A stretch of 52,732 nt of DNA from a virus. The translations under genes were made by a program, and so were the position numbers. Below, piece after piece: positions 20,992 to 49,858 of the stretch (position 1 is the first letter of the stretch; each line of letters opens with the position of its first letter). The notes under the pieces were generated by a model. It worked only from the letters and a program-made list of their open reading frames with translations. It did not search any database and had not been told where the DNA came from. The stretch covers positions 1 through 52,732 of IMG/VR virus record IMGVR_UViG_3300042294_004185; one strand, 5' to 3'.

Positions 20992-21246
20992 CTATTTTTT
21001 ACCTTTTAGCATTTGGATCACTTTTTCTAAGTATAGAGCTAAATCCATTGCTTCTTCTTTGGCATGTTGTAAATAATCTAATACTGATAAGTCTGTTCTA
21101 TCTAAAGTATTATTGTATTTTTCTTTACCCATTTCAGCTCTAGTAATGTGTTCATCGATAACCGAATCAACAATAGAGTCTGTTTTTAATATTGTACGAG
21201 TTTCAACACCGTGTCTAACTCCGTAAATTTCACTGTTTTTTGTCAT
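20992..21246 (-). CDS. MazG-like small NTP pyrophosphohydrolase candidate
   Basis: This 84-aa protein has a stretch (EKYNNTLDRTDLSVLDYLQH, then AKEEAMDLALYLEKVIQ) resembling the helical metal-binding part of small all-alpha NTP pyrophosphatases, where the EEAxDLALY acids bind Mg. Such enzymes remove unwanted dNTPs or (p)ppGpp-type nucleotides. It is shorter than full MazG domains (about 100 aa). It overlaps the clamp-loader gene upstream by 4 bases. Confidence 0.55.
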   Translation of the reverse strand: MTKNSEIYGVRHGVETRTILKTDSIVDSVIDEHITRAEMGKEKYNNTLDRTDLSVLDYLQHAKEEAMDLALYLEKVIQMLKGKK

Positions 21247-21662
21247 TGTACTTCTTTTAATAACTTTTTAATTTCTTTTTCATCAACACCTGCCCTTTCA
21301 AGAATCATCTCTACTCCTTCTCTTTTAAGAATATAAAGATAGTCTTCAGCTTCCCCAAGGGAAATTGTATAATGATCAGCAATGTGTTGTAACACTTTTT
21401 CGTTTGGTTTTTTACGTGAACTTTTCACGTACTTAAGGAAGACATTCTTTTTAGGTAACATATGGCAGTAGTATTTATAGATTTTTTCTTTTTCAGGCAA
21501 CGGTATTCTTTGGCCATAGTTAGCAACCTCTGTATACCCCTCATACATACTAACAAACCGGTGAACCATGTAAGAATTAAACGAATTTTGCTGGTCTTCA
21601 GTAAAAGAAGACCAAGCAGATTTCGTTGTTGTTATCTCTTTAAGCCAATCAAATATTGTCAT
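21243..21662 (-). CDS. 62: Clamp loader small subunit (T4 gp62-like)
   Basis: This 139-aa protein fits the phage clamp loader small subunit: FDWLKEITTTKSAW at the start, a central MVHRFVSM... helix set, a PKKNVFLKYVKSSRK basic stretch, and a C-terminal DHYTISLGEAEDYLYIL... helix pair that resembles the end of gp62. With gp44 it opens the clamp around the primer end in an ATP-driven step. Its place beside the gp44-like gene supports the call, since similarity in this family is low. T4 gp62 is longer (187 aa). It overlaps the gene upstream by 14 bases. Confidence 0.7.
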   Translation of the reverse strand: MTIFDWLKEITTTKSAWSSFTEDQQNSFNSYMVHRFVSMYEGYTEVANYGQRIPLPEKEKIYKYYCHMLPKKNVFLKYVKSSRKKPNEKVLQHIADHYTISLGEAEDYLYILKREGVEMILERAGVDEKEIKKLLKEVQ

Positions 21663-21903: not shown

Positions 21904-22096
21904 TGTTTTCTTTATTATGTTTTTTCCATTCAATCCAGAATCCAGTTGCTACTAATAAATTCATACCAACTGAAGCCCATAATTCATAAATGTCTTCATA
22001 TATGTTCATAGTTAAGTGAATATGTCCTACTGCCCAAAAAGGTATAGACAAATTACTAGCTACCCATACTATAAAGAACATTATAAATTTTTTCAT
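21893..22096 (-). CDS. Small two-pass membrane protein, 67 aa
   Basis: Two hydrophobic segments are visible, about residues 5-25 and 40-57 (WASVGMNLLVATGFWIEW), with a charged tail. It lies between clamp-loader genes and overlaps the gp44-like gene by 4 bases. Its function is unknown; a membrane role during infection is a guess. Confidence 0.5.
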   Translation of the reverse strand: MKKFIMFFIVWVASNLSIPFWAVGHIHLTMNIYEDIYELWASVGMNLLVATGFWIEWKKHNKENNDK

Positions 22097-23031
22097 ATAA
22101 CTCTTTTATTTGAAATTAATGACAAGATTCTGGATACCAAAGCCATTATATTAATTTCTTTATCTAATCTAAAATTAGCATGATATTGATACTCTTCAAT
22201 ATAAATTACTATCTCACCTACACTTAATGGAGCATACTTTTCTACATTGTCATACAAGTATCTAAACATGTCTTCAAAATCATTTACATTTGAGTCAGCA
22301 ATTATTTGTCTAATGTTATTAAACGATTTAGCTGTTGGTTTCATTAATTCCGCGAGCACCTTGTTTTTATAGCTATTAGACACTAATATACTTTTATCTA
22401 CAACGATTTCATCACCATTAACACTCATTTGTAGTGTGTTAAGCATTTTACGAATATCAGGATAATGTTGATTAATAACTAATTTTAAATCATCAGCACT
22501 ACAATCAACTTCTTCCTGTTTAAAGATATCCATAATATGATAAGCAATCTCTTGTTTAGATGGAGGTACAATTTTTAATACCTGACAACGAGATTGTAGA
22601 GGATCAATTACACGTTCAATATAATTACAAGTTAAAATAAAACGAGTTGACCTTGAAAATGTTTCAATAATATTACGGAGCGCTGCTTGACCTTGGATTG
22701 TAATATAATCTGCTTCATCCAAGATAATTACTTTAAATGGTTTAAATGAGGCAACAGAGGCAAAACTTTTAACTTTTTCCCTAATTGTGTCAATTCCATT
22801 TTCATCACTAGCATTAATGTACAAATATTCACAATCTAAATTATTAACAATAAGTTTTGCTAATGTAGTTTTACCTGTACCTGCTGTTCCGTAAAATAGG
22901 AAGTTTTGAATATCATTTTGTTTTAAGTAATGAGAAATAGTTTGTTTGATATTTTCATTACCAACATAATCTTCAAGTGTTTGACTACGGTATTTTTCAA
23001 CCCATAATGTATGCTCTCTCTTAGTACTCAT
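22093..23031 (-). CDS. 44: Clamp loader large subunit (T4 gp44-like AAA+ ATPase)
   Basis: This 312-aa RFC-type AAA+ protein starts with LWVEKYRSQTLEDYVG (the RFC box), then Walker A GTAGTGKT (48-55), Walker B VIILDEAD near 101-108, and the arginine finger SRC (147-149). It would form the ATPase ring that loads the sliding clamp, together with the gp62-like protein encoded just downstream. The length matches T4 gp44 (319 aa). It overlaps the unknown gene upstream by 11 bases and lies in the same transcript as the chaperonin genes. Confidence 0.92.
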   Translation of the reverse strand: MSTKREHTLWVEKYRSQTLEDYVGNENIKQTISHYLKQNDIQNFLFYGTAGTGKTTLAKLIVNNLDCEYLYINASDENGIDTIREKVKSFASVASFKPFKVIILDEADYITIQGQAALRNIIETFSRSTRFILTCNYIERVIDPLQSRCQVLKIVPPSKQEIAYHIMDIFKQEEVDCSADDLKLVINQHYPDIRKMLNTLQMSVNGDEIVVDKSILVSNSYKNKVLAELMKPTAKSFNNIRQIIADSNVNDFEDMFRYLYDNVEKYAPLSVGEIVIYIEEYQYHANFRLDKEINIMALVSRILSLISNKRVI

Positions 23032-23482: not shown

Positions 23483-25421
<1,939 letters not shown>

Positions 25422-26007: not shown

Positions 26008-26011
26008 GGTT

Positions 26012-27264: not shown

Positions 27265-29859
27265 TTAAAATTTAAAAAACTTGTTTATGTTTGGATTAAG
27301 TACTACAGCACCCCATCCTAAATCGGAATATAATGACTCTAATTTGTTTTTCATAACTGAATCAAATAAGCCGTCTCTATCTATATATTTTTCTACAAAA
27401 TCTCTGATTTCCTGAGGGTCATTATAACCGTTAAATCCTATAACATCAATTCTATAAGGATTATCCTTTAAATAAGCAATAAACATTTTATCACCAATTT
27501 GAAATTTAGGATATTTTTTGTCTAAACCTTTAAATTTTAAAATATCGTTATAGTAAATTGCTGCTTTAGTATTAATAGGGCATTTTAGTCCTAATTTAGA
27601 AAATATTTCACCAGCACCTGGAGGTCCAGCTAAATATTCACTCATTTTCTTTAATCCTGTAGGTTTAAGGATTTTTTCCCAACCAATTGTTCTTAATTCG
27701 TTTCTAAAATCTAATATTTGTTTATCAATATCTGATTTAGGTTTACCAAACATAATTTCATTAATAATATGTTCACCGAATTTTTTAAACAATGGTGGGA
27801 AATTTGATTTCATCAAATCTAATCCTTTAACATCTAATTCATCTGTTGGTACACCTTCTTTATTAACAATATGTTGAGCGTATCTTCTCTTACCTGCAAA
27901 GTAACCTCTATCAAGTACAACCTCTTGTTTTAATTCAAAGTAATGAGGTTCATTAGGATAACTAATATTAAATAATTCTTGTACTAGAGTATGTAAATTT
28001 TCATTTGCTAATTTTTGAATTTCAGTAGCAACTTTAAGTACCTCTTGTACAATTGTTTCTTGATCTGCTGTAACTAATTTAGGGTTACGTTTTAAGATTA
28101 AATCTTTAACCTGAATGAATAGTGAATCGGTATCTGATGTAACAATATAATCTTTATCTTCTGTACCTAATTCTTGATTTAACCAATTATTTACAAATAC
28201 AATAGATTCTTGAGTTAAGCGTTGACCTGTTAAAGTAATTGCTTTACTAATAAATTTATTTCCATCAGTGTATCTCCAACCATTAATAGCAAATACCCCG
28301 TAAACGTCATTTAATTTAATTTTATACGCGTGTTGACGCCTATCGTAAAAAGATCCCATAACAGGGTCGTTATCTTCTTTATATGCTTTTTTCATGAGTT
28401 TTTTATACTCTTGACGTTTAGCAAACCAGTCAGATAAAATTTCACATACAACACTTGATTTGTCTTTACGGAACATCACTCCAGGTGCTGATATAATTAA
28501 ATCATTACCTTCAATAATTTCTATTAAGTCACCTACTTTAACTTGTGTATGAGATAATCTACGATCCTTTTTAACTTTTTCAATAGTAACAACAGTGTTA
28601 GAATCCATTGCTTTAAGTTCTTTAAGTGACCATTGGTTATCAAATTTACCTCTATTTACAACACGTCCAACTAACGTTTCAATACCCATATTAAGTGAAC
28701 GAATAATAGAAGGATACAAAGATGTAAAATCCAAGTCAATAACCCACTCATATAGTCCTGGTGTTGGATCTTTTAAATAACCACCAGCATATTCTTCTTG
28801 TAATGTTTGAAGTGCTGGATTATAAGTAGTAGGTTTATTAGGTGAAACTATACCTTTACGTTTTAGGTAAGTTAAAATAGCACCTTCATTTAATACTGTT
28901 GAAAAATAAATCGATTCATAAGTTGTATGACATAAGTGACCAATTGTAACTGTCAGCTCCATAAACTTCATTCGTTTTTCAAGCTCAACAATAATTTCAA
29001 CGTCACGTAAGTTATACTCAATAAACTTATCTACGTCTTCAGCAAATAATCTATCAAGTGAACCTTGATACTCAATCTTTTCTAATTTAGCATATTTTTT
29101 ACCAATATCACCTAAACGATAAGATGGCTCTTGTTTTGTAATAAACTTTTTAAACAAAAGCATATAATCAAGATGGTTAATACCTCCTAAGTTAACAGGT
29201 TGATCTTGATACTGAGGTGTAAATTTGATTTTACCAATTGGGGATAAAGTATTGGCCAAAGATTCGCCCATTACTTTTTTAATACGATAATATAAATAAG
29301 GTATATCAAAGAAACCACTATTCCAACCTGTAATAATTGTAGGGTCTAATTCATACCACTTATCTAAAAATCCACTCAATAATTCTTTTTCAGATGTATA
29401 AGGAATAATAATTTTGTCTTCAGACTCGGCTTTAGACATTTTACCTTCTTTATCTAAAATTAAACAGAAATATTTTTTAGAATTATGGTCATATAAAGCA
29501 ACAGCTGTTATTTCACCTTTAGGATCTTTAATATTTTCCTCAGTTAATGCTCCCGCTACTACACACTCAATATCAAGATAAACTATGTTATGGAATTTAG
29601 GTGTATCGTCAGATTCGTAATAGTAGTCTACTAACAGGCGAGTTAATTTATCAACGTCTTTTTCAAAGTATTTAGGGTCTTTCCAATCATCCATTCTTTT
29701 GGTTGGAGACACCCTAGTACCTTCTAACGTTTCAAACTCGCCATCAGGATCAGGTTGATATAAGGTAGGCCAGTGTTGTAAGGTTTTAAACCCTTCCCAT
29801 CTGTCATCTCTTAAATAATACTGTTTTTCTTCCTTATCGTAGTAGACCGCTTGATACAT
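27265..29859 (-). CDS. 43: Family B DNA polymerase (T4 gp43-like)
   Basis: This 864-aa polymerase has all expected motifs. 3'-5' exonuclease: VYLDIEC (D96, E98), GWNSGFFDIPYL (178-189) and YNLRDV (282-287). Polymerase: motif A DLDFTSLYPSII (375-386), motif B KIKLNDVYGVFA (514-525) and motif C SDTDS with D577 and D579. The length is near T4 gp43 (898 aa). It replicates phage DNA with the clamp encoded 3 bases upstream. I see no intein or frameshift. The gene for the dUTPase-like enzyme abuts its start. Confidence 0.96.
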   Translation of the reverse strand: MYQAVYYDKEEKQYYLRDDRWEGFKTLQHWPTLYQPDPDGEFETLEGTRVSPTKRMDDWKDPKYFEKDVDKLTRLLVDYYYESDDTPKFHNIVYLDIECVVAGALTEENIKDPKGEITAVALYDHNSKKYFCLILDKEGKMSKAESEDKIIIPYTSEKELLSGFLDKWYELDPTIITGWNSGFFDIPYLYYRIKKVMGESLANTLSPIGKIKFTPQYQDQPVNLGGINHLDYMLLFKKFITKQEPSYRLGDIGKKYAKLEKIEYQGSLDRLFAEDVDKFIEYNLRDVEIIVELEKRMKFMELTVTIGHLCHTTYESIYFSTVLNEGAILTYLKRKGIVSPNKPTTYNPALQTLQEEYAGGYLKDPTPGLYEWVIDLDFTSLYPSIIRSLNMGIETLVGRVVNRGKFDNQWSLKELKAMDSNTVVTIEKVKKDRRLSHTQVKVGDLIEIIEGNDLIISAPGVMFRKDKSSVVCEILSDWFAKRQEYKKLMKKAYKEDNDPVMGSFYDRRQHAYKIKLNDVYGVFAINGWRYTDGNKFISKAITLTGQRLTQESIVFVNNWLNQELGTEDKDYIVTSDTDSLFIQVKDLILKRNPKLVTADQETIVQEVLKVATEIQKLANENLHTLVQELFNISYPNEPHYFELKQEVVLDRGYFAGKRRYAQHIVNKEGVPTDELDVKGLDLMKSNFPPLFKKFGEHIINEIMFGKPKSDIDKQILDFRNELRTIGWEKILKPTGLKKMSEYLAGPPGAGEIFSKLGLKCPINTKAAIYYNDILKFKGLDKKYPKFQIGDKMFIAYLKDNPYRIDVIGFNGYNDPQEIRDFVEKYIDRDGLFDSVMKNKLESLYSDLGWGAVVLNPNINKFFKF

Positions 29860-30356: not shown

Positions 30357-30526
30357 TACTTTAATTTATTTAAAATTTTATCCCAAAACAAGTCTAACTT
30401 GTCTTTTCTTGCTTTACAGCCACAATCATCATAGCCCATTTTTTTGGCTATAAAGAGGGCAATACGGTAACCTTGCCCTAAGGTAATAATGTTTATTACC
30501 TTTTCAACAAAACCACCTAGCTTCAT
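30356..30526 (-). CDS. Small conserved phage protein with CGC motif, 56 aa
   Basis: The frame gives MKLGGFVEKVINIITLGQGY, then a hydrophobic stretch and GYDDCGCKARKDKLDLF. The order IAKKMG, DCGC, RK and LF is one I associate with small unnamed phage proteins. A Cys pair (C36, C38) may bind metal. It overlaps the FolE stop by one base and the dUTPase-like start by three. Confidence 0.55.
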   Translation of the reverse strand: MKLGGFVEKVINIITLGQGYRIALFIAKKMGYDDCGCKARKDKLDLFWDKILNKLK

Positions 30527-35666: not shown

Positions 35667-36457
35667 TAAACAGCTCTCTTAGTATCATAACTAATAATGT
35701 GGTCACGACCTGTCCAATTATAACCCATTTCAAATGCTTTTTCTAATGAAATAGGATATTGTTTAATTAATTCCTCTCTGTTATCTCCAGCAGGCATCAA
35801 CCAAGTTTTATTTTTAGGAATATTCATTTCAACTCTAAATCCCTCAATTTCATCCATTGTGGTTTGAGTACCATCATAAACTGGTTTATAATGAAAATCA
35901 GTATGATAGTCTAATGTTTTACGAATTGCCTCTTTATTTAAACGAAGTTTATTATGTTGGTCAATCATTTTTTGATCAACGAGTTTACCCATTGGAGTGG
36001 TAGTGTCAAGGCTAGGAACAGAATTACTAAACTTTGGAGATAAAGATACCAACCCAAATGGATAATCGGTTTCAATAAAGTGACTACCTTCTGTTTCAAT
36101 GGTTATACATATACCACGCTCGTGAGCAAAGTGAGTTAATTCATTACACAAATCAGGTTGCATAGTTGGTGAACCTCCAGTTAACATCATTTCTTTAATT
36201 TCAGGATTTTCATCATAAATCTTAATAATGTCGTTAAATGTATAAATACCTTTTTCTGGGTGGATACTTGTGTACCAAGAATCACACCAACCTCCAGCAC
36301 CAAACCAACATCTATGAGTACAACCTGTTGTTCTAATAGCTACTGTTGGGCGACCTTGTCTTGAACCTTCACTTTGAATACAAGTATAAACTTCAAGTAC
36401 AGGTAATTTTTTGTTATAGTCGAGAATACGACCTGGTTTTTTAGTTTCTGTTGTCAT
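35666..36457 (-). CDS. queE: 7-carboxy-7-deazaguanine synthase QueE (radical SAM)
   Basis: This 263-aa radical SAM protein has IQSEGSRQGRPTVAIRTTGC, then the cluster Cys C46-x3-C50 and C58, and MLTGGSPTMQPDL for SAM binding. It converts 6-carboxy-tetrahydropterin to CDG with ring contraction. The Cys spacing is odd: the usual CX3CX2C has the third Cys at 53, while here five extra residues give CX3CX7C, so the cluster loop is longer. It abuts the QueD gene by one base. It forms part of a DpdA/QueC/QueD/QueE unit. Confidence 0.88.
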   Translation of the reverse strand: MTTETKKPGRILDYNKKLPVLEVYTCIQSEGSRQGRPTVAIRTTGCTHRCWFGAGGWCDSWYTSIHPEKGIYTFNDIIKIYDENPEIKEMMLTGGSPTMQPDLCNELTHFAHERGICITIETEGSHFIETDYPFGLVSLSPKFSNSVPSLDTTTPMGKLVDQKMIDQHNKLRLNKEAIRKTLDYHTDFHYKPVYDGTQTTMDEIEGFRVEMNIPKNKTWLMPAGDNREELIKQYPISLEKAFEMGYNWTGRDHIISYDTKRAV

Positions 36458-37017
36458 TAGAATTCATATTTTGAGTTTGAACGATATTCATTTAGATATT
36501 TTTCCATATCATCTTTAGACATAGGTTTAATATCTTCTTGGTAAATGCTAGAATTTTTATCTGCTTCCCAACATTCTACTTTGGTTACTTTAACTCTACC
36601 ACCACCTTGTTTAGATAATACATCATTAAATTTATCATATACTAATTTAGCAGCAGATTCAGCTCCAATTTTATCCATAATACGTAAATGACATACTGTT
36701 GGATTCATTGAAACAAATAAATCTAAATATGGATCATCTTTTTCAATTAATAAAGTATGATCCCACATATAATCCATCCAATCTTTTAATCCATTACCTG
36801 GAGTTGGTTTGGCATCTACTGATTTAAATCCACCATAGTCTTGAATCCAATTCATTTCATCTAATTGGTTTTCTTCTAATGGTTCTACTGATTCAAACCA
36901 TACTTTAAATTTTAAAGCATAACCATGAAGTAGTTGACAATGTGAATGTTGTGCTTTCCATTGTCTAATAGCAACTGAATAGTTGTCAAATAATTTTGTT
37001 GATTGATATTTACCCAT
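36457..37017 (-). CDS. queD: 6-carboxy-5,6,7,8-tetrahydropterin synthase QueD
   Basis: This 186-aa protein has the family core: QHSHCQLLHGY with catalytic C27 and H31, MWDHTLLI with the Asp-His pair (D86, H87), and VECWEADKNS with the Glu that binds the substrate (E148). It turns dihydroneopterin triphosphate, made by FolE, into 6-carboxy-tetrahydropterin. One usual zinc His is a Tyr (HGY for HGH), so zinc binding may be altered. It overlaps the thioredoxin gene by 8 bases. Confidence 0.88.
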   Translation of the reverse strand: MGKYQSTKLFDNYSVAIRQWKAQHSHCQLLHGYALKFKVWFESVEPLEENQLDEMNWIQDYGGFKSVDAKPTPGNGLKDWMDYMWDHTLLIEKDDPYLDLFVSMNPTVCHLRIMDKIGAESAAKLVYDKFNDVLSKQGGGRVKVTKVECWEADKNSSIYQEDIKPMSKDDMEKYLNEYRSNSKYEF

Positions 37018-37258
37018 TGTTAATAAATTGCATTACTTGTTCATATGATTTCGCACCTACAAATCTACGAACTTCTTGTCCGTTTTCCACGAGTATTACA
37101 GTAGGAACACTCATAACATTTGCACCACGAGCTCTATCCATTTCATAATCAATGTTAATTTTTTGAACACCAATTTGTTGTCCTACTTTATCCATAACTG
37201 GACCTAATGCTTGGCAAGGACCACACCAAGGGGCTGTAAAATAAAATAATTGTTTCAT
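37010..37258 (-). CDS. Thioredoxin (CGPC type)
   Basis: This 82-aa protein starts QLFYFTAPWCGPCQALGPVM with the full WCGPC redox site, then the cis-proline SVPTVILV and FVGAKSYEQV near the end. It is a little shorter than host thioredoxins (105 aa). It may reduce the phage ribonucleotide reductase or another enzyme in this transcript. It overlaps both neighbours by a few bases. Confidence 0.88.
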   Translation of the reverse strand: MKQLFYFTAPWCGPCQALGPVMDKVGQQIGVQKINIDYEMDRARGANVMSVPTVILVENGQEVRRFVGAKSYEQVMQFINNG

Positions 37259-37410
37259 ACTAATTCTTCGATAATTCCTATAAGTTCACTAAATATAAGT
37301 ACTGTAGTTGCAGCTACCAAGCTAAATGGAATAAGTCCATAACCGGCAATTCGTACTCCTGATTTGATAAAACTAATAGTTTGATGTTTTTTAGGATCTG
37401 GTTGTTTCAT
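37255..37410 (-). CDS. Small membrane protein, 51 aa
   Basis: The frame gives MKQPDPKKHQTISFIKSGVR, then a hydrophobic segment (about residues 21-42: IAGYGLIPFSLVAATTVLIF) and a short acidic end. Overlaps of 4 bases on both sides support the frame. I associate the KKHxTxSFIKSGxRIAGY pattern with other phage small genes, without known function. Confidence 0.6.
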   Translation of the reverse strand: MKQPDPKKHQTISFIKSGVRIAGYGLIPFSLVAATTVLIFSELIGIIEELV

Positions 37411-37625
37411 TTTAATAATTCTTCTTCGTTAATTAATTCGGCTCCATAAGTAAATTCTAAAAGCCGTGTTGTATTTTCTTTATGTAATGGTTTTGCTTCA
37501 AACCAATTACCGGACCATTGAGCAGAACCTCCTTTTAATCCGGTAAATACCTCCCCTGCTCTATTAATTACTACATACATAGGAACAGAGGGAGGTGATT
37601 TTCTATACTGTTTTCGTGTGTTCAT
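37407..37625 (-). CDS. Conserved small phage protein, 72 aa
   Basis: A basic start, a beta-rich centre (MYVVINRAGEVFTGLKGGSA) with WSGNWFEAKPL, and an acidic end. No family I can name. It overlaps QueC by 23 bases at the start and the small membrane protein by 4 at the end, so it probably is expressed with the QueC gene. Confidence 0.55.
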   Translation of the reverse strand: MNTRKQYRKSPPSVPMYVVINRAGEVFTGLKGGSAQWSGNWFEAKPLHKENTTRLLEFTYGAELINEEELLK

Positions 37626-38502
37626 CTAGAACGGAAGATACGTACTCTTTTACAAATTCCCAAGTTACTGGTCCGAATTCGTCAGCATAACTTACAGGAT
37701 CTTTACGACCTAGTTTTATAAATGCTTCTACTCGTTCAACAGATGATGCTGATTTGTAATCACTAAACCAATCTTCTTCTTCAACAATACCACCATCTTC
37801 AGTATCATAATATACTGTTAATTTAATTGGTTTATAGGATGTATTAGTACGTCTATAAACTTCATCAAAATTAAGTCCAAGGGTATGACAACAAATCTCA
37901 CCATCAACTAAAATACCATACTTATCATCTTCAAGATATGGAGTATAATAAGTTACTTTTTCAGCACCCCAGTTACCTGCTTTAAATGCTTCATAATCAA
38001 TATCTCTAAATTCTTGTCTACAATCAGGATAAATTGCATGGTCACCAGCATGAATACCCATTGCAATAACACATTCTGTATTTTTAGATTCTGCAATTGA
38101 TAAGGCAACGGCTTGAATAATTGAACTAAAGATTTTGTTACGATTAGGAACAACAGTCGCTTTCATATTTTCTTCAGCATAGTGTCCTTCAGGAACTTCT
38201 GCTCCACCTGTTACAAGTGCTGAATTTAGTAGTTGACTCAATCCATCAAGTTTAATTACTTGATAATTAACTTTAGGAAAGTGATGTAAAATAACTTCTG
38301 ATGTTTCAGATTTGTATTTAACTTCATCTGCTTTACTATTTAAATAATCAACTAAAGACTGTGCACGTTCAAGTTCAACTGAATGTTTTTGTCCATAATC
38401 AAAGGATAATGCTGTAACTTCATAGCCATTGGCGAGTAGATGAAGCAGCAAGGTAGAGCTATCCATTCCTCCACTTAGTGATAATACTGCTTGTTTATTC
38501 AT
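37603..38502 (-). CDS. queC: 7-cyano-7-deazaguanine synthase QueC, lacking the zinc site
   Basis: This 299-aa protein begins with the ATP-pyrophosphatase loop SLSGGMDSSTLLL (S10 to S16) and has FDYGQKHSVEL and VPNRNKIF, as in QueC. QueC makes preQ0 from CDG with ATP and ammonia. Its normal zinc site is four Cys: one before a Tyr (SCY) and three in CGxCxxCxxR. Here these read TNTSYKP and D248...S251...S254...R257, so all four Cys are replaced while the rest of the motif (VERVEAFIKLGRKDP) is kept. There is an insertion of about 20 residues before it. It could be active without zinc or could make an amide product. Its start overlaps the small gene upstream. Confidence 0.88.
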   Translation of the reverse strand: MNKQAVLSLSGGMDSSTLLLHLLANGYEVTALSFDYGQKHSVELERAQSLVDYLNSKADEVKYKSETSEVILHHFPKVNYQVIKLDGLSQLLNSALVTGGAEVPEGHYAEENMKATVVPNRNKIFSSIIQAVALSIAESKNTECVIAMGIHAGDHAIYPDCRQEFRDIDYEAFKAGNWGAEKVTYYTPYLEDDKYGILVDGEICCHTLGLNFDEVYRRTNTSYKPIKLTVYYDTEDGGIVEEEDWFSDYKSASSVERVEAFIKLGRKDPVSYADEFGPVTWEFVKEYVSSVLDEHTKTV

Positions 38503-40479: not shown

Positions 40480-41805
40480 TTAGAAGTAAGTTATAGTATT
40501 ATCGTCATCTTTTTTATTCTTTAAAGACCCTAATTCCATACTTAATTTTTTTATTTCTTCTATTTGTTTATTAATGTTACTTAATTCTTCTGGGTTGAAA
40601 TTGTAATATTGTTTTACATTATCTACAACGCCTTCAACTTGTTTATTTAGTTGATTTAATTTTGATGCTGTTTCTGGGTCTAGATTAGCTGCTTTTGCTT
40701 CTTCTTCATCTATATAACCATCATTATTAGTATCTGCTTCTTCAAATACTTGTTGTAATTCTTCTTCCTCTATTACACCATCTCCGTCTAAATCTAGATT
40801 TTTAGATTCTTGTTCTTGTTCTTCATAATATAGTTTACCTGTTTTAGGATCTACAAATACAGGAATAGGTTTTTCTTTTTCTTGTTCCTGTTGTTCCCAA
40901 TTTTGATAATCTACTAAACTAGCTTCTTCCCATTCTTTTATTTCATCTTCTAAATCATCGTATGCCTCTACTACTTTTCTCATATCCTCTACTTTTTCTT
41001 CTATTGGTGTTTCTCTACGTTTAGTAAGTTGGGCAAAAGCAAAGTTAGCGGCTATAACAAGAGCAATAGCTAATGGATCAAACACAAATATAATAACTAA
41101 TATGTACCAGTTAATAATTCGGTCCATAGCAACTCCAGTAAGAGTACTTAAATATTTTAATGGACCTAATTCACTTTCAGCTGTAGCTGTATTTTTAATT
41201 TCTAATATTTTGGTTTCTAAAGAAAAAATAGAATCATTTACTACATCTAATTTAGCAGATAGTTTTTCATCTGATTTAGAGGCATTTTCTATCTGTTTAA
41301 TAGTAGCATTATTTGATCTTACTACTAAATTACCTTTTTTATCAGTATATTGAGTAGTTGAACCCTTAGATAATGTACCTTTTAGTTCTGATAGTGATTG
41401 TTTTTCTTTAAGAATACCATCTCTATTACTTTCATAAAGTTTCTTTTTAGTTTCTAAAGATGCTATTTTAGAATCAACAATACTTGTTTGGTCCGCAGTT
41501 TTCTGATATGCTGAAGATAAGTAACCATAAATACCAGCAGAGGTAATTAATATTAATACTGCTGCTGCTATAGTTAAATAAGTTCTTAATATTTTATTTA
41601 GTTTATTCCAGTACTGATAAAGTAAAGAAGCAATTACTAATTTAGATATTTCTAGAGAAGCTGCCATAATGATTACAGCGGTACTAGCCCCAGCAAATAA
41701 CATGCTAAGGCCAGTAACACTATAAACTGCAGCAGATGCACTTACAGATAGTGCGGAAAGTGCGATTATTAAAGGAAATATCCTTTCTTTTATACTGTTC
41801 CACAT
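40480..41805 (-). CDS. Membrane protein with coiled coil and two EF-hands
   Basis: This 441-aa protein has hydrophobic segments near residues 9-30, 35-62 and 75-95, a long coiled-coil region (100-210), and a further membrane stretch (232-258, NWYILVIIFVFDPLAIALVIAANF). The C-terminal half has two complete EF-hand loops, D338-x-D340-x-D342-G to E349 and D358-x-N360-x-D362-G to E369, so it should bind calcium. EF-hands are rare in phage proteins. It may join the phage or its tail to the host envelope, or sense calcium at the membrane. Phages of this group have a related membrane protein without a known role. A late motif lies just ahead of its start. Confidence 0.7.
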   Translation of the reverse strand: MWNSIKERIFPLIIALSALSVSASAAVYSVTGLSMLFAGASTAVIIMAASLEISKLVIASLLYQYWNKLNKILRTYLTIAAAVLILITSAGIYGYLSSAYQKTADQTSIVDSKIASLETKKKLYESNRDGILKEKQSLSELKGTLSKGSTTQYTDKKGNLVVRSNNATIKQIENASKSDEKLSAKLDVVNDSIFSLETKILEIKNTATAESELGPLKYLSTLTGVAMDRIINWYILVIIFVFDPLAIALVIAANFAFAQLTKRRETPIEEKVEDMRKVVEAYDDLEDEIKEWEEASLVDYQNWEQQEQEKEKPIPVFVDPKTGKLYYEEQEQESKNLDLDGDGVIEEEELQQVFEEADTNNDGYIDEEEAKAANLDPETASKLNQLNKQVEGVVDNVKQYYNFNPEELSNINKQIEEIKKLSMELGSLKNKKDDDNTITYF

Positions 41806-41809: not shown

Positions 41810-41820
41810 TATAAATATTA
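41810..41820 (-). promoter_or_regulatory. Putative late-gene motif TAATATTTATA
   Basis: Exact copy. The TAA is the stop of the RNR gene and the EF-hand gene begins 5 bases further on. It separates early RNR from the membrane protein. Confidence 0.4.
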
Positions 41821-43674
41821 AACTACCTCACAGGCTCCACCTGCACAAGCGGCTTGATCCATTAACGCTGTATTATCACTCATTTCAACAACTCGTGACA
41901 AATCTACCTCGTGTAATGATTTTACTGCTTCGTTAAATTGTTCTTCAGTAATGGTTTCAAAAGGTGCTTGTTTGTAAGTACCTAAATCCTCAGGTAAGAA
42001 TGACAATGCGGTAAAATATTCTTTATTTTCATAAAGCCATTCTCCAACTGCAGGCCATTCATCTTGTTTAATAGTAACAGTAGCTGATACGTTATGCATG
42101 TTAGCACCTTTTCTATGTCCTGGTTTAATCCAATTTTTGTTAATTGTTTTAATACGCTCTAACATATCCATAGCTGATTCTTTACGTGTAATAGCACCTT
42201 CTGGAGCACGTTGAGGAACAGAAACAATTGATTGAAGATTTGGTTTAAAGAAATCATCTTCCAACATTTCAGGATGGTAAATACTTAAGTAAGTATACAA
42301 AGCTTCATTTTTACCTAAACGGATTCTACGTAAATAGAAATCATCATGCCAAGCGTGAATACCTGAACTAGTACCTAATACTAAAGATGTAGTACCTGAT
42401 GGTTTAACTGTAGTAACACGAGCTGCTTTATTAATACCTAATACTTTAGCTAAACGTTCGTTTTCCTCACAAGCTACTTTAGCTGCTTCTTTCATATTTA
42501 ACTTAAACACAGCACCTGAAGCAATACCTGTCATTCCAATACCTAGCAATGCTTCTTTTTCAGTTGTTTTTCTCCAAACATCTCTTAAGTAATGGAAATC
42601 AGTATATGAAGCTTGTAATGTACCAATAAATGCTGCTGCTTTAGCTCTTGCATTATATTCTTCTTGAGTTTCAATATCGCTAGCGTTAATTTCACACAAG
42701 TTACAGAATTGATTAGCTTTTAAGTTAATTTCAGCACAAGGGTTTGTTCCAGCATCTTTATCATTTGTAAAGATAAATCCAGGTTCACCACTATTAGATG
42801 CCTCAATTTTACCCCACAAATTCATAAATGTTTCTTTATCAATCATATTACGAAGTAATACTGCTGAGTTATTAGCACGACCACGTTGTGGATTATTTTC
42901 CCACCAGTTACCAAACTTACAAGTCAACATATCTTCATCATGTAAATTGAATAAAGCAATTAACGCTGCTCTACGAATACCACCTGATAATACAGCATCA
43001 GCTAAGTGACAAATAATATCGTGACATTCCAATGTTGTTAATTTTTCACCATCATTTTTACGGTCTAAAATAGCTTGCATATGAATCAAAGCAATTTTCA
43101 ATGGTTCAGGACCTGGTGCTTTACCACCAACTGTAATCAACGAAGCACCTTTAGCTCTAATGTCTCTAAAGTCAAATAGAGGAGCAGTTGATGTTTGTCC
43201 AAAATATGCTTTAGTCAACATACGAACAGCATCAGCCCATCCTTCAATAGAATCACCTACTAAATAACGCTTTGATTTCAAAGGTTTTCTAATTTCAGGT
43301 AGTTTTTCTACGTGGTGGGTTTGTACTGAGTACCCTACTCCACAGCCTGAAAGTAATAAAAACATAATTTCAGAGAATGCTCTAAAATCATCAATTGGTA
43401 AGTAAGAACAGTTAAAAATACGAGCATTGTTTATTTCAATTGGTTTACCAGCAAATTGCATTGAACGCATTGAAGGTAATACCTTTTTGTCATAAACATA
43501 CTTGTAAGCGGCTTCAATTTCTTCAGCCAATTGTGGAAATTTCTTTAAATGCATTTCCTTGTTTCGAGTTACTAGCTCGTCCCATGTTTCTCTTCTGTTT
43601 TTTTCAGGTACGAATTTCGCATACTTGAGATGGGTAGTAATTTCAGACAAAATTTGTGATTCTGTGGTTAACAT
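41818..43674 (-). CDS. B12-dependent ribonucleoside-triphosphate reductase (class II, RTPR type)
   Basis: This 618-aa protein matches monomeric class II RNR: SMRSMQFAGKPIE, FNCSYL with C89, LLSGCGVGYSVQ, VGDSIEGWADAV, GGIRRAALIALF, NPCAEINL with thiyl Cys C313 and Glu E315, and C324 as the C89 partner. VKPSGTTSLVLGTSSGIHAW follows. The C-terminal redox pair is C610 and C615 (CAGGAC). These reduce NTPs to dNTPs with adenosylcobalamin and need no oxygen or second subunit, so the phage depends on host cobalamin. It is shorter than the 740-aa Lactobacillus enzyme. Phage thioredoxins encoded in this window may reduce the pair. Confidence 0.92.
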   Translation of the reverse strand: MLTTESQILSEITTHLKYAKFVPEKNRRETWDELVTRNKEMHLKKFPQLAEEIEAAYKYVYDKKVLPSMRSMQFAGKPIEINNARIFNCSYLPIDDFRAFSEIMFLLLSGCGVGYSVQTHHVEKLPEIRKPLKSKRYLVGDSIEGWADAVRMLTKAYFGQTSTAPLFDFRDIRAKGASLITVGGKAPGPEPLKIALIHMQAILDRKNDGEKLTTLECHDIICHLADAVLSGGIRRAALIALFNLHDEDMLTCKFGNWWENNPQRGRANNSAVLLRNMIDKETFMNLWGKIEASNSGEPGFIFTNDKDAGTNPCAEINLKANQFCNLCEINASDIETQEEYNARAKAAAFIGTLQASYTDFHYLRDVWRKTTEKEALLGIGMTGIASGAVFKLNMKEAAKVACEENERLAKVLGINKAARVTTVKPSGTTSLVLGTSSGIHAWHDDFYLRRIRLGKNEALYTYLSIYHPEMLEDDFFKPNLQSIVSVPQRAPEGAITRKESAMDMLERIKTINKNWIKPGHRKGANMHNVSATVTIKQDEWPAVGEWLYENKEYFTALSFLPEDLGTYKQAPFETITEEQFNEAVKSLHEVDLSRVVEMSDNTALMDQAACAGGACEVV

Positions 43675-43689: not shown

Positions 43690-45051
43690 TTAATTAGTTA
43701 GTTCGAAAAATTTTTGTTTAATAAGGGCTTTATCTACAGAATCGATGCCTCCAAAAGTTGATGATTGAGGTGTTGTAGGTGTATCGTCATCGTCTTCCAT
43801 TTGGGATGATACCTCAAAGTGTCCTGTTGAAGTATCTACTTTGACAGAATAGGTCATACCGTCCATTCCGTATCGATTTTTCATAATGTGAAATCTTCCT
43901 GTCCCATTTACTTTATCTTGACGTTTCCTTGATAAGGATATAGCAACATCGGTAACCATCATTTTATCATAGCTACCTGCGGCTTTATCACCTTCAATAA
44001 TATCATCTTTTGCACCAGCTCGGTTTACTTGAGACACACTCCAAATAGGTAGTTTTAATTCTCTAGCAAGTCCTTTAGTACTAATATAAATATCATCTAT
44101 TTCGTCCTTACGCTCACCATTCTTTCTTTTAGAACGAAGAAGGTCAACATAATCGATAATAACTAGATCTGGTTTAAAATCTAAGTCAATACATTTTTTA
44201 ACATGCGATTCAATTGTAGAAATTGTTGCTTTTCCTGTAGGGAATTCTTTAATAATAAGTTGACCTTGTAACTGAGTAATAACTTCTTCAACCTTATCTT
44301 TATGTTTAATAATATTACCTACAGGAATATTGGTGAAGAAGGCATCATAACGTCTACCAACATAATCTGCTCCTAATTCAAGTGTATAGTGTAAAACATT
44401 ATAACCTAATTTAACAGCATAACCACCTAAAGCAACTAATGACCAAGATTTACCACCACCTGGGCTACCAAAAATCAATCCGAAGTCACCATCACCTAAT
44501 CCACCTTGTAACAATTCATTAAATGGTTCAAATGGTGTAGGAACTACTACTCTATGATCTTGTCTGTAACGAGATTCGGTATCTTTATTGTACTCGTGTC
44601 CAATATTTTTGTCTTGACCCGCTTTAAGTGCGTTATCAACAATTGTTCTAATTGAATCATAGTCTCCTGCGTTTAGGAAATCTACGCTTGTTAACAACGC
44701 TTTTTTAAGCTGTTGATTCTTACAAAAATTACTAAACTCTTCTTCTACATACTTAAGATCCTCGTCTGATGCTTTATAAGCTTCACGGAGTTGTTCTTTG
44801 ATAGATACTTGTAATACTTCATTGTCGATCTTTTTAAGTTCTACTTTGAGAACATCCATAGTAGGACAAGTGTGGTATTTTTGGTAATATTTTAGAATTT
44901 CTTTGATAATCCACTTGTGAGCTTGATTATCAAAATATTCTTCACTTAACACATCTTGAATATTCAAGAGAAATTCCTTGTGTGTTAGCAAAGAGGATAA
45001 AACTTTGATTTGAAAACCGACGCCATAGGCGTTTAGATTGTTTAATGTCAT
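43690..45051 (-). CDS. 41: Replicative DNA helicase (DnaB/T4 gp41-like)
   Basis: This 453-aa protein has an N-terminal helical domain (1-150) and a RecA-type motor: Walker A GSPGGGKS (195-202), LHYTLELGADYVGRRYDAF (H1a-type Glu), Walker B DLVIIDYVDLL with D300, and SVSQVNRAG (H3) with an arginine finger stretch after. It unwinds DNA at the fork as a hexamer and needs a primase. No primase gene is seen in this window. Its start is 5 bases after the exonuclease gene. The length is close to T4 gp41 (475 aa). Confidence 0.92.
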   Translation of the reverse strand: MTLNNLNAYGVGFQIKVLSSLLTHKEFLLNIQDVLSEEYFDNQAHKWIIKEILKYYQKYHTCPTMDVLKVELKKIDNEVLQVSIKEQLREAYKASDEDLKYVEEEFSNFCKNQQLKKALLTSVDFLNAGDYDSIRTIVDNALKAGQDKNIGHEYNKDTESRYRQDHRVVVPTPFEPFNELLQGGLGDGDFGLIFGSPGGGKSWSLVALGGYAVKLGYNVLHYTLELGADYVGRRYDAFFTNIPVGNIIKHKDKVEEVITQLQGQLIIKEFPTGKATISTIESHVKKCIDLDFKPDLVIIDYVDLLRSKRKNGERKDEIDDIYISTKGLARELKLPIWSVSQVNRAGAKDDIIEGDKAAGSYDKMMVTDVAISLSRKRQDKVNGTGRFHIMKNRYGMDGMTYSVKVDTSTGHFEVSSQMEDDDDTPTTPQSSTFGGIDSVDKALIKQKFFELTN

Positions 45052-45056: not shown

Positions 45057-46094
45057 TTATTTTGTAAAACTATTTAATATTTTGTAAACATTGTTGATTG
45101 TAAATTCAGGATTTTTGATCATATGACCTAATCCATCTTCATGGTAAAATCGTAAAAAAGCTTCAGTATTCAAAGCTGGAGTTGATTCTTCTACAACATT
45201 TTCTAAATATTCTTTTTCTGTATCATCCATTAATGGATTACTTAGATCCATAATACGATAGTTGTTTTCTAATCTCTCCATATCAAATACTACTCTTGAA
45301 TATACGACATGTTCCTTATGTTTAGCAGCACTTATTTCAATAATATCTTGAAATGTAAGTGGACGTTCTGCTAATTCAGGGAATTTTTTAAGTAACCCTT
45401 TTTCACCTAATCCTTTAACACCTGCTACTTTATCTGATTGGTCACCCAATAATGTTTTATACAGAATAAAATTCTCAGTTAATACACCAAAATTTTCTTT
45501 AACTAATTTTTTGGTATAAAATTCTTTTTCTCCAGGACGATAAAGTATAACATTTTCGTTTACTAATTGAACAAAGTCTTTATCGTTAGATACTATGAAT
45601 ACTTGAGAATTATGTTTTTTAGGTAAAATATCACTTAAGTAAGCAATAATATCATCGGCCTCTACTTTATCTAAACTTAATGTTTTAACGGGTAGGCATT
45701 TTAAATAATGAATTAATCTTACTATTTGGTCAACTTTAGAATCATGTTCATCTTCTAATGAATCAAAAGTATCCCAGTTTGTGATACGAACTAAATTACG
45801 ACCTGATTTGTATTCAGGTAATAGATTTTTTCTGTTTACTGATGAACCCGTTCCATCAAATACTACATAAACAGATGTTGGTTGGATTTGATTAATTAAA
45901 GCATTAAGAGAACGAATAAAACCCCCTAAACCGCCAATGTGAACTCCTTGCTCATTTACAAGGTTCATCATTGCGAAGTTCCTAAAAAACAAATTTAGTC
46001 CATCAATCAATAGTACTCGCTCGTGTGGACTGGTAGAACTTTCTTCTTGCTTATCCATTTGGTTTAGGAGGTTTAATAGTTCGTTCTTGTTCAT
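45057..46094 (-). CDS. 5'-3' exonuclease/RNase H (FEN-like)
   Basis: This 345-aa protein has the FEN order of motifs: VLLIDGLNLFFRNF with D31, a YVVFDGTG acid pair, EADDIIAYLSD and IVSNDKDFVQL (metal acids), and LLGDQSDKVAGVKGLGEKG with helix-hairpin-helix DNA binding. It removes RNA primers and 5' flaps, as T4 Rnh does. It lies between UvsX and the helicase in the replication transcript. Confidence 0.9.
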   Translation of the reverse strand: MNKNELLNLLNQMDKQEESSTSPHERVLLIDGLNLFFRNFAMMNLVNEQGVHIGGLGGFIRSLNALINQIQPTSVYVVFDGTGSSVNRKNLLPEYKSGRNLVRITNWDTFDSLEDEHDSKVDQIVRLIHYLKCLPVKTLSLDKVEADDIIAYLSDILPKKHNSQVFIVSNDKDFVQLVNENVILYRPGEKEFYTKKLVKENFGVLTENFILYKTLLGDQSDKVAGVKGLGEKGLLKKFPELAERPLTFQDIIEISAAKHKEHVVYSRVVFDMERLENNYRIMDLSNPLMDDTEKEYLENVVEESTPALNTEAFLRFYHEDGLGHMIKNPEFTINNVYKILNSFTK

Positions 46095-46133: not shown

Positions 46134-47219
46134 TTAATCAGGCTCTTGCTCAAAAATATTCATTGAACTTTCTAACACATCTTCTTCCTCGTAAATATCG
46201 AAATCCATACCACCCAAAATCTTACTCCATTCTGAAGCATGATCATCTTTGTATGCTTTAATTTCTTTATCAGTATCATTAATAAAACCGTGTGGGGTCA
46301 TAATAATTTTACCTCGAGTTGTAACACCATTAATGTGGTTTTTATCAATTTGAATATTTGTACGTTTAGCAAATTCAACTTGTTTACCATCTTTAATAGC
46401 TTTGATTTTACTGGTACCAGCATTTGAAACATTACCGAATGTAATTACAAACGTAGCGTCAAACCACATAGCAAATCCACCTTTATTCATCAACTTAGGT
46501 TGTCCCATAGGTACTTCAGCTTTTGCTGTCCAAACCTTGTTAACACATACCAATGTATTAGTGTATGGTGAACTTTCTTTACGTGATAATGTAATTTTTT
46601 GGTTTACGTTGTTACCAAACTGTGTACTCATAGCACCAGCATTCCATTCATTGTTATTTTTGTTTGATTTAACAGACAATTCACAAGGAACTGAACCGAT
46701 TGAATCCCACAAGAACAATAAATCATAAGGTAGATTACCTTTTTTCTGTTCATCAAGCAAATCTAAAATAAATGCGGCTACATCTTCAATTGTGTGTAAA
46801 GTTTCCCTATCTACGTAAAGGAAAAATCCACTATAATTTCCAACCTCACCAGTTTCTTCATCTACTTCAGTGTTTACTTGCATTCCCATTTGAACTGCGT
46901 GTTCCCAATTCCATTTCATCTCAGTAATAATAAACACGGGTAGTACACCTGCTTTTTGAGCAGCAACTGCTGCCTCAATCAACGCTGTTGTTTTTCCTGT
47001 GTCACTATGTCCACGAAGTAGAACAATGTGCCCAGTAGGAATACCAGGCACACTTGTTACTTCTTGAAATGCAGGACTAAGGGGAATCCACTTCTGTTCT
47101 TTAAACTTAACGTTACCATTAAGTAATTTCTTCTCCTTAAATTTATCTAAATTGAAATTAGATTTAATTTCTGCGGAGACTGCAGCCGTTAGCGATTCGC
47201 TTTTCTTAGTTTTTGCCAT
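46134..47219 (-). CDS. uvsX: UvsX-type RecA recombinase
   Basis: This 361-aa RecA-family ATPase has VLLRGHSDTGKTTALIE (Walker A at 70-78), VFIITEMKWNWEH with the catalytic Glu, LLFLWDSIGS (Walker B) and a loop 2 stretch near NAGAMSTQFGNNVNQK. It pairs single-strand ends with homologous DNA for recombination-dependent replication. The acidic C-terminal tail (IYEEEDVLESS) and 361 aa fit UvsX (391). The ssDNA-binding gene lies 13 bases upstream. Confidence 0.92.
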   Translation of the reverse strand: MAKTKKSESLTAAVSAEIKSNFNLDKFKEKKLLNGNVKFKEQKWIPLSPAFQEVTSVPGIPTGHIVLLRGHSDTGKTTALIEAAVAAQKAGVLPVFIITEMKWNWEHAVQMGMQVNTEVDEETGEVGNYSGFFLYVDRETLHTIEDVAAFILDLLDEQKKGNLPYDLLFLWDSIGSVPCELSVKSNKNNNEWNAGAMSTQFGNNVNQKITLSRKESSPYTNTLVCVNKVWTAKAEVPMGQPKLMNKGGFAMWFDATFVITFGNVSNAGTSKIKAIKDGKQVEFAKRTNIQIDKNHINGVTTRGKIIMTPHGFINDTDKEIKAYKDDHASEWSKILGGMDFDIYEEEDVLESSMNIFEQEPD

Positions 47220-47232: not shown

Positions 47233-48078
47233 TTAGAAAGGTAGATCGTTGTCTTCATCTTCGTCAAACAAGGCATCAAATTTTTCTGCTTTGCTTGCTT
47301 TTGTAGTTTGAGGTGTTTTCAAAGCATAATTTTTAACAGGAGCTGCTTCTAATTCTGCTTCTACTTCATTCTCATCATCGATGATTGAACCTTCTTCTGG
47401 TTCTTCAGGTGACAACCAATTTTGCAATACTTCTTTCAAATCATCATAAGTTCTCTTACGTTGAAGTTCCAAAATGTCTGGTTGATCTGTAAGGAATTTA
47501 CCGATTTGAGAAGCATCTGCACTCAAAGCTGTAGTTTTAGGTTTAATTCTGATTGATGATTTAAGACCTTGGCGACCACCAATATCACCTTTAACTACAT
47601 CAACAGTAAAGTCACGACCTTCGTTGATGTCAGTGTAATCACCATAATCTTCATCCTCAGCAATACCTAAAAGTTGCATGTAAATTTCTTTACCAAATTC
47701 CCAAAGGCGTACACCTTTTTCTTCTTCACCACGTACAATAACGGGAGCATAAACCCTCATTTTAGGTTCAATTTTCTTAGCTAGCTGCCAGTTTTCTTTG
47801 TCGTTGGTTTTACGGAGTTGAGAAACAAATTCTACAACAGGATCTTTTTCACCCCAGTTAGTTAGGGAAAAGATAGGGAATTTAGAAATTACATAATGTA
47901 CAAAAACCTCTTTGAAAGGATTTTGAGGGTCCAATTTTGAAGGTACAATACGAATTTGGTACTTTCCTTCTTCTTTTGGTTTCCAGTAAACTTTTGAGTA
48001 ATCGATTTTTTCTTTCTTGCCTGTGTTGTTCGTCGACTGTAAAGCGTTTAGTCGTTGTTTGATAGCATTAATATCCAT
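47233..48078 (-). CDS. 32: Single-stranded DNA-binding protein (T4 gp32-like)
   Basis: This 281-aa protein shows a basic N-terminal part, a VYWKPKEEGKYQIRIVPSKL pattern typical of gp32-type binding, an OB-like core, and an acidic tail ending FDEDEDNDLPF which would contact partners. T4 gp32 has a zinc site with His and three Cys; here there is no Cys at all, so zinc cannot be bound. It coats ssDNA at the fork and helps UvsX and polymerase. It starts a transcript with its own promoter. Confidence 0.85.
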   Translation of the reverse strand: MDINAIKQRLNALQSTNNTGKKEKIDYSKVYWKPKEEGKYQIRIVPSKLDPQNPFKEVFVHYVISKFPIFSLTNWGEKDPVVEFVSQLRKTNDKENWQLAKKIEPKMRVYAPVIVRGEEEKGVRLWEFGKEIYMQLLGIAEDEDYGDYTDINEGRDFTVDVVKGDIGGRQGLKSSIRIKPKTTALSADASQIGKFLTDQPDILELQRKRTYDDLKEVLQNWLSPEEPEEGSIIDDENEVEAELEAAPVKNYALKTPQTTKASKAEKFDALFDEDEDNDLPF

Positions 48079-48105: not shown

Positions 48106-48136
48106 AATATAAGAACGAGGTATTGTATAACCAAGT
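48106..48136 (-). promoter_or_regulatory. Early-type promoter ahead of the gp32-like gene, ACTTGG-N19-TATATT
   Basis: Exact spacing. The leader runs CGACATTAAAC... to the start 28 bases away. It would drive the ssDNA-binding, recombinase, exonuclease and helicase genes. Confidence 0.75.
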
Positions 48137-48600
48137 TAAAGTTCAACAATTTTAAAAACTTTTGTATTCAGTTGTTTCAACTCATTATGGTTGGTTAACA
48201 AAATACAGTTTTTATAGTGTTGCCAATTTACACGGTAAGATGGATCAACCACACCACCGTTTAATTTTTTTATTAGATCATTTAACGCATTAATAGTATA
48301 AAGCGTATTAGTTTCTTTCTTTCTATGTACTAAGATTGTATTTTGAGGAATACCCTCAACATTACCTTGCTCTACGTTGTATGTAACAACATACTCGTCT
48401 GTACTTTTAACATAAAGTATAAACATCTTATTATACATAATTGAATAAGACTTAGTCAATTCACTAATCAGTGCATCTAAATCCTCTAGTCCTGTAAATG
48501 TACAAAATAACTTATTGTTCACGTCTTTTATGTTTGTCGAATCGAAATCGTATCCGTCATACATATAGTCATTTTTCTGTAAAATCATATGTTTTTCCAT
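48136..48600 (-). CDS. Unknown protein next to the PolA-like gene, 154 aa
   Basis: The likely start is the ATG at 48600, whose AAGTTATG leader resembles those of other early genes. An ATG 11 codons upstream and one four codons downstream are also possible. The protein has YDFDSTNIKD, a helical middle and VVDPSYRVNWQHYKNCILLTN, with no family recognised. It overlaps the PolA-like gene by 32 bases, so the two are probably co-expressed. Confidence 0.5.
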   Translation of the reverse strand: MEKHMILQKNDYMYDGYDFDSTNIKDVNNKLFCTFTGLEDLDALISELTKSYSIMYNKMFILYVKSTDEYVVTYNVEQGNVEGIPQNTILVHRKKETNTLYTINALNDLIKKLNGGVVDPSYRVNWQHYKNCILLTNHNELKQLNTKVFKIVEL

Positions 48601-49858
48601 AACTTGTTTTTGTTTGTAACCTGTATTTATCAAATATTTGTCTTATCTCATTTTCTATATCATTTTCACCCTCACCTAGCTCAAACAAAAACGAATCGTA
48701 CGTATATAATACAATTTTTGTTTTGCGTCCTCGCAGTAGCTTATGTATATCTATCAATATATGAACATTCATTGCGGACTCCACATTCTGCAACATATAG
48801 TTAAACAGTTTTTGCGGATTCATATTCTCCAGCTCGCTCTTTTTAAAGCAATAACCCGAAATCGGCACGATAACTTGACCCGAGTTATTGAACTCTTTCC
48901 AGTTATTGTCTACAAATTGTTTTACTTGTTGAAAAAATTCAAGGTGCTCATACTCTTTAAAAACGCCTCCGTATAGCTGCTTAAACGTGATTTCTTTTGC
49001 TTCTTTATAACTCGTTTGGTAGAGATCCGCGAACGCTTGATGGACATCTGGAACGCCAAAATCATAGGCAAGTAAACGACCGACAATAGTAGGATGGTAT
49101 GCACTAATATCGAACTCAACGTACCCATGACTCGATATGTAACTCCTCCTTGAGCCATTGTCTTTGTTTATTGCTGCGAAATTAACGCCATTAAAAGAAT
49201 TACTTGGTCTACGTGTTGTTGTAGCCAAATTGTAGCTTGTGTAAATTCGATCGCCTTGGATTGAATAAAATTCATTGTTGAGCTCATAGTGTTTATCAAA
49301 TTCATATTTGTCTATTTTTAATCCGTTTTTTTCTATTCCAAAGAATGCAAGTACTGCCTTATTGTTGTAAAAATCAAAATATGGTGGTAATTCCTTTGGT
49401 ATTACACTACGAACTTGTTGATAAATATGTTCGCATTTTTCGTAGTGTTTGCTTATTGGTACAAGTTTATTAACCTTTGGATAATTCGTATGGTGAGAAT
49501 AAAAGTAATTATGTGCTTGTGTTTCGGTTTGTATATACGTAGGATTAAGAATGGATAGGTCGCACAAGCTTTTGATAGGAAAATAGTACAATGCGGATTT
49601 CTTATCGCGTACCCACACTTTATCTATTTTTTGTAGTAACGCGTCTATAACCGTTTTATTAAGCGAGGAAGTCTCACTATGGTCAACGCATAACATATAA
49701 CCTTTTGTGTCGTTAAACGGTCTTATATACACTAAAGACACGTCATTTAAAGCAGGGTGTATGTTATCGTGATACGGAATTATCTCTACGAATGCCTCTT
49801 GTATCGTCTTGTGGACTAGATAGTCCATCGATTCTTCTGTTTCTATAATCCAAAACAT
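48569..49858 (-). CDS. Compact family A DNA-polymerase-like protein
   Basis: This 429-aa protein reads like the palm and fingers of PolA. LATTTRRPSNSFNGVNFAAI is the template region, YVEFDISAYHPTIVGRLL is motif A with D250, KEAKEITFKQLYGG is motif B (K285/K288 to Y296-G297), NYMLQNVESAMNVHILIDIH is the helix before motif C, and LYTYDSFLFE is motif C with D388. The two metal Asp are kept but the HDE of motif C is YDS. The N-terminal 200 aa show no clear exonuclease acids. It is much shorter than a Klenow unit (about 600). It may be a repair or specialised polymerase beside the family B enzyme, or a primase substitute. It overlaps the virion gene by 95 bases. Confidence 0.72.
   Translation of the reverse strand: MFWIIETEESMDYLVHKTIQEAFVEIIPYHDNIHPALNDVSLVYIRPFNDTKGYMLCVDHSETSSLNKTVIDALLQKIDKVWVRDKKSALYYFPIKSLCDLSILNPTYIQTETQAHNYFYSHHTNYPKVNKLVPISKHYEKCEHIYQQVRSVIPKELPPYFDFYNNKAVLAFFGIEKNGLKIDKYEFDKHYELNNEFYSIQGDRIYTSYNLATTTRRPSNSFNGVNFAAINKDNGSRRSYISSHGYVEFDISAYHPTIVGRLLAYDFGVPDVHQAFADLYQTSYKEAKEITFKQLYGGVFKEYEHLEFFQQVKQFVDNNWKEFNNSGQVIVPISGYCFKKSELENMNPQKLFNYMLQNVESAMNVHILIDIHKLLRGRKTKIVLYTYDSFLFELGEGENDIENEIRQIFDKYRLQTKTSYGKTYDFTEK

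Follow-up and report, generated by a model that had tools for sequence, protein, structure and literature searches.

A family of divergent family A DNA polymerases was named divPolA1 in section 13 of "DNA polymerase swapping in Caudoviricetes bacteriophages" (Yutin et al. 2024, Virol J 21:200, PMC11348598). The description in that section covers 14 phages, Flavobacterium phage vB_FspM_immuto (immuto) among them, and gives as traits a conserved palm, a truncated thumb, an inactivated 3'-5' exonuclease, and replication genes downstream. These phages are also described as having a regular polymerase of family A, B, or C, located near GroEL/GroES and nucleotide-modification genes (PMC11348598). 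The divPolA2 of barbaviruses, as described in the same paper, is likewise a second divergent PolA that lies beside PolB and lacks the exonuclease and a normal thumb; according to this description, it differs from divPolA1 in having an unrelated N-terminal domain and a variable neighborhood. In a literature text search, the name divPolA1 was found only in PMC11348598 and its preprint.

Here we compare these systems with a locus in a viral DNA stretch of 52,732 nucleotides (the window). The original prediction, made from the sequence alone, had placed a second, compact family A polymerase beside a family B polymerase in this stretch. The features of the locus are listed in Table 1.

Table 1. Features of the divPolA1 locus and of the regular replicase cluster in the window
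Feature	Position	Strand	Evidence
divPolA1 gene, compact family A polymerase of 429 aa	48569..49858	minus	tblastn, hhalign, AlphaFold2 model, Foldseek, published description
Shortened, inactivated 3'-5' exonuclease-like domain, residues 1-165	49364..49858	minus	conservation, model, Foldseek
T215-x-R217-P-x-N220 ... N226, counterpart of the Klenow TGRLSS/PNLQNIP segment (R668)	49181..49216	minus	alignments
Motif A DISAYH; D250 = Klenow D705, H255 replaces steric gate E710	49094..49111	minus	alignments
Motif B / O helix YKEAKEITFKQLYG; K288 = K758, F292 = F762, Y296 = Y766, Y284 replaces R754	48968..49009	minus	alignments
Q-helix segment N353 ... Q357, E360, N364 (Klenow N845/Q849)	48767..48802	minus	alignments
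Motif C YTYDS; Y387 replaces H881, D388 = D882, S389 replaces E883	48692..48706	minus	alignments
Conserved partner ORF, 154 aa, ATG at 48600	48136..48600	minus	neighborhood conservation
gp32-type single-strand binding protein	47233..48078	minus	profile matches, neighborhood
UvsX-like recombinase	46134..47219	minus	profile matches, neighborhood
5'-3' exonuclease, Pol I N-terminal / flap-endonuclease type	45057..46094	minus	profile matches, neighborhood
DnaB-type replicative helicase	43690..45051	minus	profile matches, neighborhood
Regular T4-type family B DNA polymerase, separate cluster	27265..29859	minus	PF00136, phrog_262
GroEL and GroES genes close to the regular polymerase, an arrangement published for divPolA1 phages	23483..25421	minus	profile match
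Clamp loader large subunit (T4 gp44 type)	22093..23031	minus	profile match
Clamp loader small subunit (phrog_225)	21243..21662	minus	profile match

The window protein and its relatives

The predicted ORF was present. It starts with ATG and encodes the full 429 aa; its strand, left unstated in the original prediction, is the minus one. Against close relatives, dN/dS was about 0.09 to 0.18 in both halves of the gene, and the ORF is therefore not a chance one.

No close match had been known to the author of the prediction. However, the gene 1 product of immuto (MW353175-MW353177) is 36% identical to it over 94% of the query (tblastn, E 1e-79) and was already annotated as a DNA polymerase of family A, and the family itself had been published as divPolA1. 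A search of other phages, proposed together with the prediction, did reveal relatives. When the window protein was used as a tblastn query, clear matches (E below 1e-29) were obtained in only six of 50,697 phage records: the four immuto records (36%), Microcystis phage Mel-JY01 (29%), and the uncultured LR756508 phage (30%). The same six were returned when the Mel-JY01 protein was the query. Membership goes well beyond the 14 described genomes: a single scan of IMG/VR with the window protein yielded at least 590 confirmed relatives, and 312 and 109 were obtained with the immuto and Mel-JY01 proteins, respectively, these being counts of relatives sampled by similarity to the query, best matches first, with many contigs being fragments. 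The search for related loci with the LR756508 homologue as query returned none. The 268 full-length members fell into three clades, with 25 to 36% identity between the window and the other two clades.

Each trait of divPolA1 that we compared was found in the window: homology, palm, truncated thumb, dead exonuclease, downstream replication genes, and, elsewhere, a regular polymerase near GroEL/GroES and nucleotide genes, all of them shared with immuto. The regular enzyme differs, being PolA in immuto and PolB here; nothing excludes membership. On these comparisons, the window protein is a member of divPolA1, a known family.

Among bacterial genomes, divPolA1 was seen on seven MAG contigs, several of them from Flavobacteria. 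Contigs L407, L409, L411, and L413 were binned as Flavobacteriia MAGs, which is compatible with flavobacterial hosts. Perhaps the MAG contigs are phage contigs binned with their hosts.

Fold and active site

When searched as a single sequence, the 429-aa protein matched no Pfam family, including PF00476, because it is too divergent for such a search. PHROG hmmscan with the same protein and hhalign against single T7 gp5 or T7 RNAP sequences gave no informative match, and in a profile search of PDB sequences Klenow came up no better than E 0.45, although its motifs were aligned in register. A relative at locus L083 matched phrog_17 at E 2e-10, and a profile-profile comparison with four phage PolA proteins (hhalign) gave a probability of 97.7 and E 1.8e-12 over residues of about 188 to 421.

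The AlphaFold2 model of the window protein, built from a 54-sequence alignment, had a mean pLDDT of 92.6 and a pTM of 0.90. Structure prediction had been proposed as a check, and the palm was there, within a right-hand polymerase fold whose motifs A, B, and C follow the order of family A. The best 50 PDB matches listed by Foldseek were all family A DNA polymerases (best E 1.5e-16). Pol I large fragments matched best, and the apicoplast Pol, Pol nu, Pol theta, and phage G20c Pol I were also among them; TM to Klenow 1kfd, normalized by query length, was 0.72. Together, the alignments and the predicted structure establish a family A DNA polymerase at the fold/superfamily level, which bears out the original assignment. 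Two other identities did not fit. An RNA polymerase was not the best structural match, as the best 50 listed were DNA polymerases. A DnaG or archaeo-eukaryotic primase (TOPRIM or AEP fold) does not fit either, as the fold is that of PolA and the DnaG of relatives is a separate gene.

With the Klenow fragment, divPolA1 shares the fold but is about 170 residues shorter, has almost no thumb, and has a dead exonuclease. The exonuclease part, previously described as not visible, is present as a shortened N-terminal remnant whose catalytic acids are lost. The exo I DxE pair and the exo II Asp are gone, and there is no conserved DEDD set (motif register by eye against Klenow); E140 may sit near the exo III Asp, where the register is uncertain. 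H34, H60, K86, and K87 are invariant or almost so in this domain. Between E176, in the IEKNG motif, and R217, the alignment leaves only 41 residues (vs. 127 in Klenow and 152 in phage P60), and the model has only a 7-residue helix there. This short connection suggests that the thumb is missing or minimal, with most of it gone.

Counterparts of Klenow R668, D705, K758, F762, Y766, N845, Q849, and D882 were identified, with a numbering that rests on the alignment and on established knowledge of Pol I. As the original prediction had it, D250 and D388 are kept and motif C reads YDS. Both Asp residues are invariant in the 268 full-length members, as are R217, H255, K288, F292, Y296, Q357, E360, N364, Y385, Y387, and K417; N353 is kept in 267 of them. 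Four departures from canonical family A enzymes are fixed or nearly so in the same set: His255 for Glu710, Tyr284 for Arg754 (267/268), Tyr387 for His881, and Ser or Ala at 389 for Glu883. At those positions, seven full-size PolA proteins from immuto and related phages have retained Glu, Arg, and His-Asp-Gln, showing that the changes are specific to divPolA1. With R754, E710, H881, and E883 all replaced, the chemistry may not be the same as in Pol I.

The replacement of several canonical positions would also be compatible with a catalytically dead polymerase retained for a structural or regulatory role. However, drift would be expected in a dead enzyme, and the metal-binding Asp pair, K288, F292, Y296, and Q357 do not vary over three deep clades. 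We consider a dead polymerase extremely unlikely and divPolA1 probably active.

Partner gene and neighboring replication genes

The ORF downstream of divPolA1 overlaps its end by 32 bp in the window. Of the 268 loci, 260 have a homologue of this ORF downstream of divPolA1 and on its strand; the contig ends there in the remaining eight, and hence every locus with room for the gene (260 of 260) has it. A reciprocal search starting from the partner found divPolA1 in 80 of 80 loci, all close relatives of the window clade. The partner was also present in all 20 large records (window included), and among the 50,697 phage records it was confined to the six with divPolA1 (a further match at E 0.7 was not counted). 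Its motif NTILVHRKKETNTLYTINALNxLI is highly conserved; the variant form VHRKK(E/D)(T/S)NTLYTINALN describes the family at window 48136-48600 (minus strand), L081:1346-1801, and L082:15927-16316.

No relative of the partner protein was detected in Pfam, PHROG, or PDB sequences. Its model (pLDDT 79.8) had no Foldseek fold match below E 0.05, with CASTOR/ACT and origin-binding-type folds matching weakly above that value. The product of this gene is probably the working partner of divPolA1, and the two proteins may form a complex. The text of the divPolA1 section makes no mention of this gene (PMC11348598); the constant partner and the conserved replacements at four active-site positions of divPolA1 are new here.

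The gene order in the window is divPolA1, partner, gp32, UvsX, 5'-3' exonuclease, and DnaB. Immuto has the same order from divPolA1 to DnaB, plus one extra gene. The Mel-JY01 cluster is interrupted by extra genes and has a more distant RecA-like protein as its recombinase. Judged by these neighbors, divPolA1 would act in replication or recombination; gap filling, D-loop extension, lesion bypass, and primer work would all fit this neighborhood.

For lesion bypass, as performed by the family A enzymes theta and nu, one could cite the lost proofreading, the altered active site, the position of divPolA1 as a second polymerase beside a replicase, and the neighboring UvsX gene. However, the thumb of theta and nu is complete and carries insertions, and such a thumb is absent from divPolA1. 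Moreover, divPolA1 was present in every relative examined and sits in the core replication cluster, which suggests a routine role and not one restricted to damage. A lesion-bypass enzyme is thus an unlikely reading.

Regular replicases, primase, and possible roles

The family B polymerase of the window had been recognized correctly (PF00136, E 2.7e-33; phrog_262, E 5e-159). GroEL, GroES, and Hsp20 genes lie close to it (23483-26452, minus strand). Among 19 other large records, PolB was found in 11 and a full-size PolA in 7, and neither was found in one 114-kb fragment. A strong clamp-loader match accompanied PolB, and with PolA there was no clamp-loader match better than E 1e-4. The pair of divPolA1 and its partner is constant while the replicase machinery, either PolB with clamp loader or PolA, is exchanged. 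Being fixed while the phages swap replicase and clamp loader, divPolA1 probably does something that a replicase does not.

Three divPolA1 phages have a split PolB gene, with the break at roughly position 570 of the phrog_262 profile in each (G019:92575-95695, G029:53171-56525, and LR756508.1:259363-267278), suggesting a shared insertion or fission site.

It is divPolA1, and not the regular polymerase, that sits in the conserved replication cluster, as would be expected if divPolA1 were the main replicase and the regular polymerase an auxiliary. Yet divPolA1 lacks a thumb and would lack proofreading, and the window has a full T4-type PolB with exonuclease domain together with a clamp loader. 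This division of labor is very unlikely.

No primase was found in the window, and a priming role for the compact polymerase had been considered for this reason. The statement is true of the window, which is a 52.7-kb fragment. In related records of at least 128 kb, phrog_47 (DnaG type) was detected at E 1e-29 or better in 13 of 13, and the DnaG-type primase of immuto has an intact CxxC pair, VEG, and DRD (zinc and TOPRIM motifs). The small size of the fragment is therefore the best explanation for the lack of a primase gene in the window, and a primase role deduced from that lack is ruled out. A repair role, also considered at that time, or an accessory one would be the best reading of the present data.

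Independently of the missing primase, divPolA1 could be a primer-making or primer-extending polymerase that accepts ribonucleotides, in parallel to the single-subunit RNA polymerases derived from PolA. All 268 members have His instead of the steric-gate Glu, whereas full-size PolA proteins of the same phage group keep Glu, the O-helix Arg, and HDQ. T7-type RNA polymerase likewise has no steric-gate Glu, and the Ser after the motif C Asp in the window clade matches its HDS. A truncated thumb suits short products, as in primases, and the gene is clustered with helicase and gp32. On the other hand, His at the steric gate need not admit rNTPs, and F292 matches Pol I and not RNAP, which has Met there. 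T7-type RNA polymerase also keeps the O-helix Arg, is far larger, and is not among the best 50 fold matches, all of those listed being DNA polymerases. Because DnaG coexists with divPolA1, we regard ribonucleotide use in priming as improbable.

The reading we favor, with slightly more confidence than doubt, is that divPolA1 is an active, non-proofreading accessory polymerase that fills gaps or extends strands together with gp32, UvsX, and the 5'-3' exonuclease. With only palm, fingers, and the inactive remnant of an exonuclease left, and a thumb that is minimal or missing, it would hold DNA only briefly and have low processivity. It would work as a two-protein unit with the product of the small downstream gene; that this partner, whose model has no fold match, stands in for the lost thumb as a DNA grip is a guess. 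The unit would carry out short-patch synthesis on gp32-coated DNA, its substrates being gaps left after primer removal by the 5'-3' exonuclease or the ends of strand invasion by UvsX (D-loop extension), while bulk replication would be left to PolB, or to the full-size PolA in immuto relatives.

A bolder version, which we rate as unlikely, is a two-subunit, thumb-less polymerase with altered sugar selectivity owing to the invariant His gate, whose partner acts as a detachable thumb or clamp. Such an enzyme would make or extend mixed RNA/DNA primers at forks or at D-loops made by UvsX, independently of the replicase family. The partner and the four altered positions make the questions testable: rNTP acceptance, the need for the partner, and essentiality in cultured immuto. 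Family A polymerases this small, lacking both thumb and proofreading, might also be of use as tools.

Several other genes lie on the minus strand of the window. At 41818-43674 (minus strand), there is a 618-aa ribonucleotide reductase large subunit with a hint of a B12-type insertion domain (PF21995, E 1e-5). EF-hand calcium-binding motifs (PF13202, E 7e-9), unusual for a phage, occur in a 441-aa protein encoded at 40480-41805 (minus strand), and similar proteins were seen in 17 loci of the window clade. QueE, QueD, QueC, and GTP cyclohydrolase genes are located at 35666-38502 and 30526-31218 (minus strand). Together, these genes point to 7-deazaguanine modification of the DNA; the same holds for immuto, in which DpdA is encoded as well.
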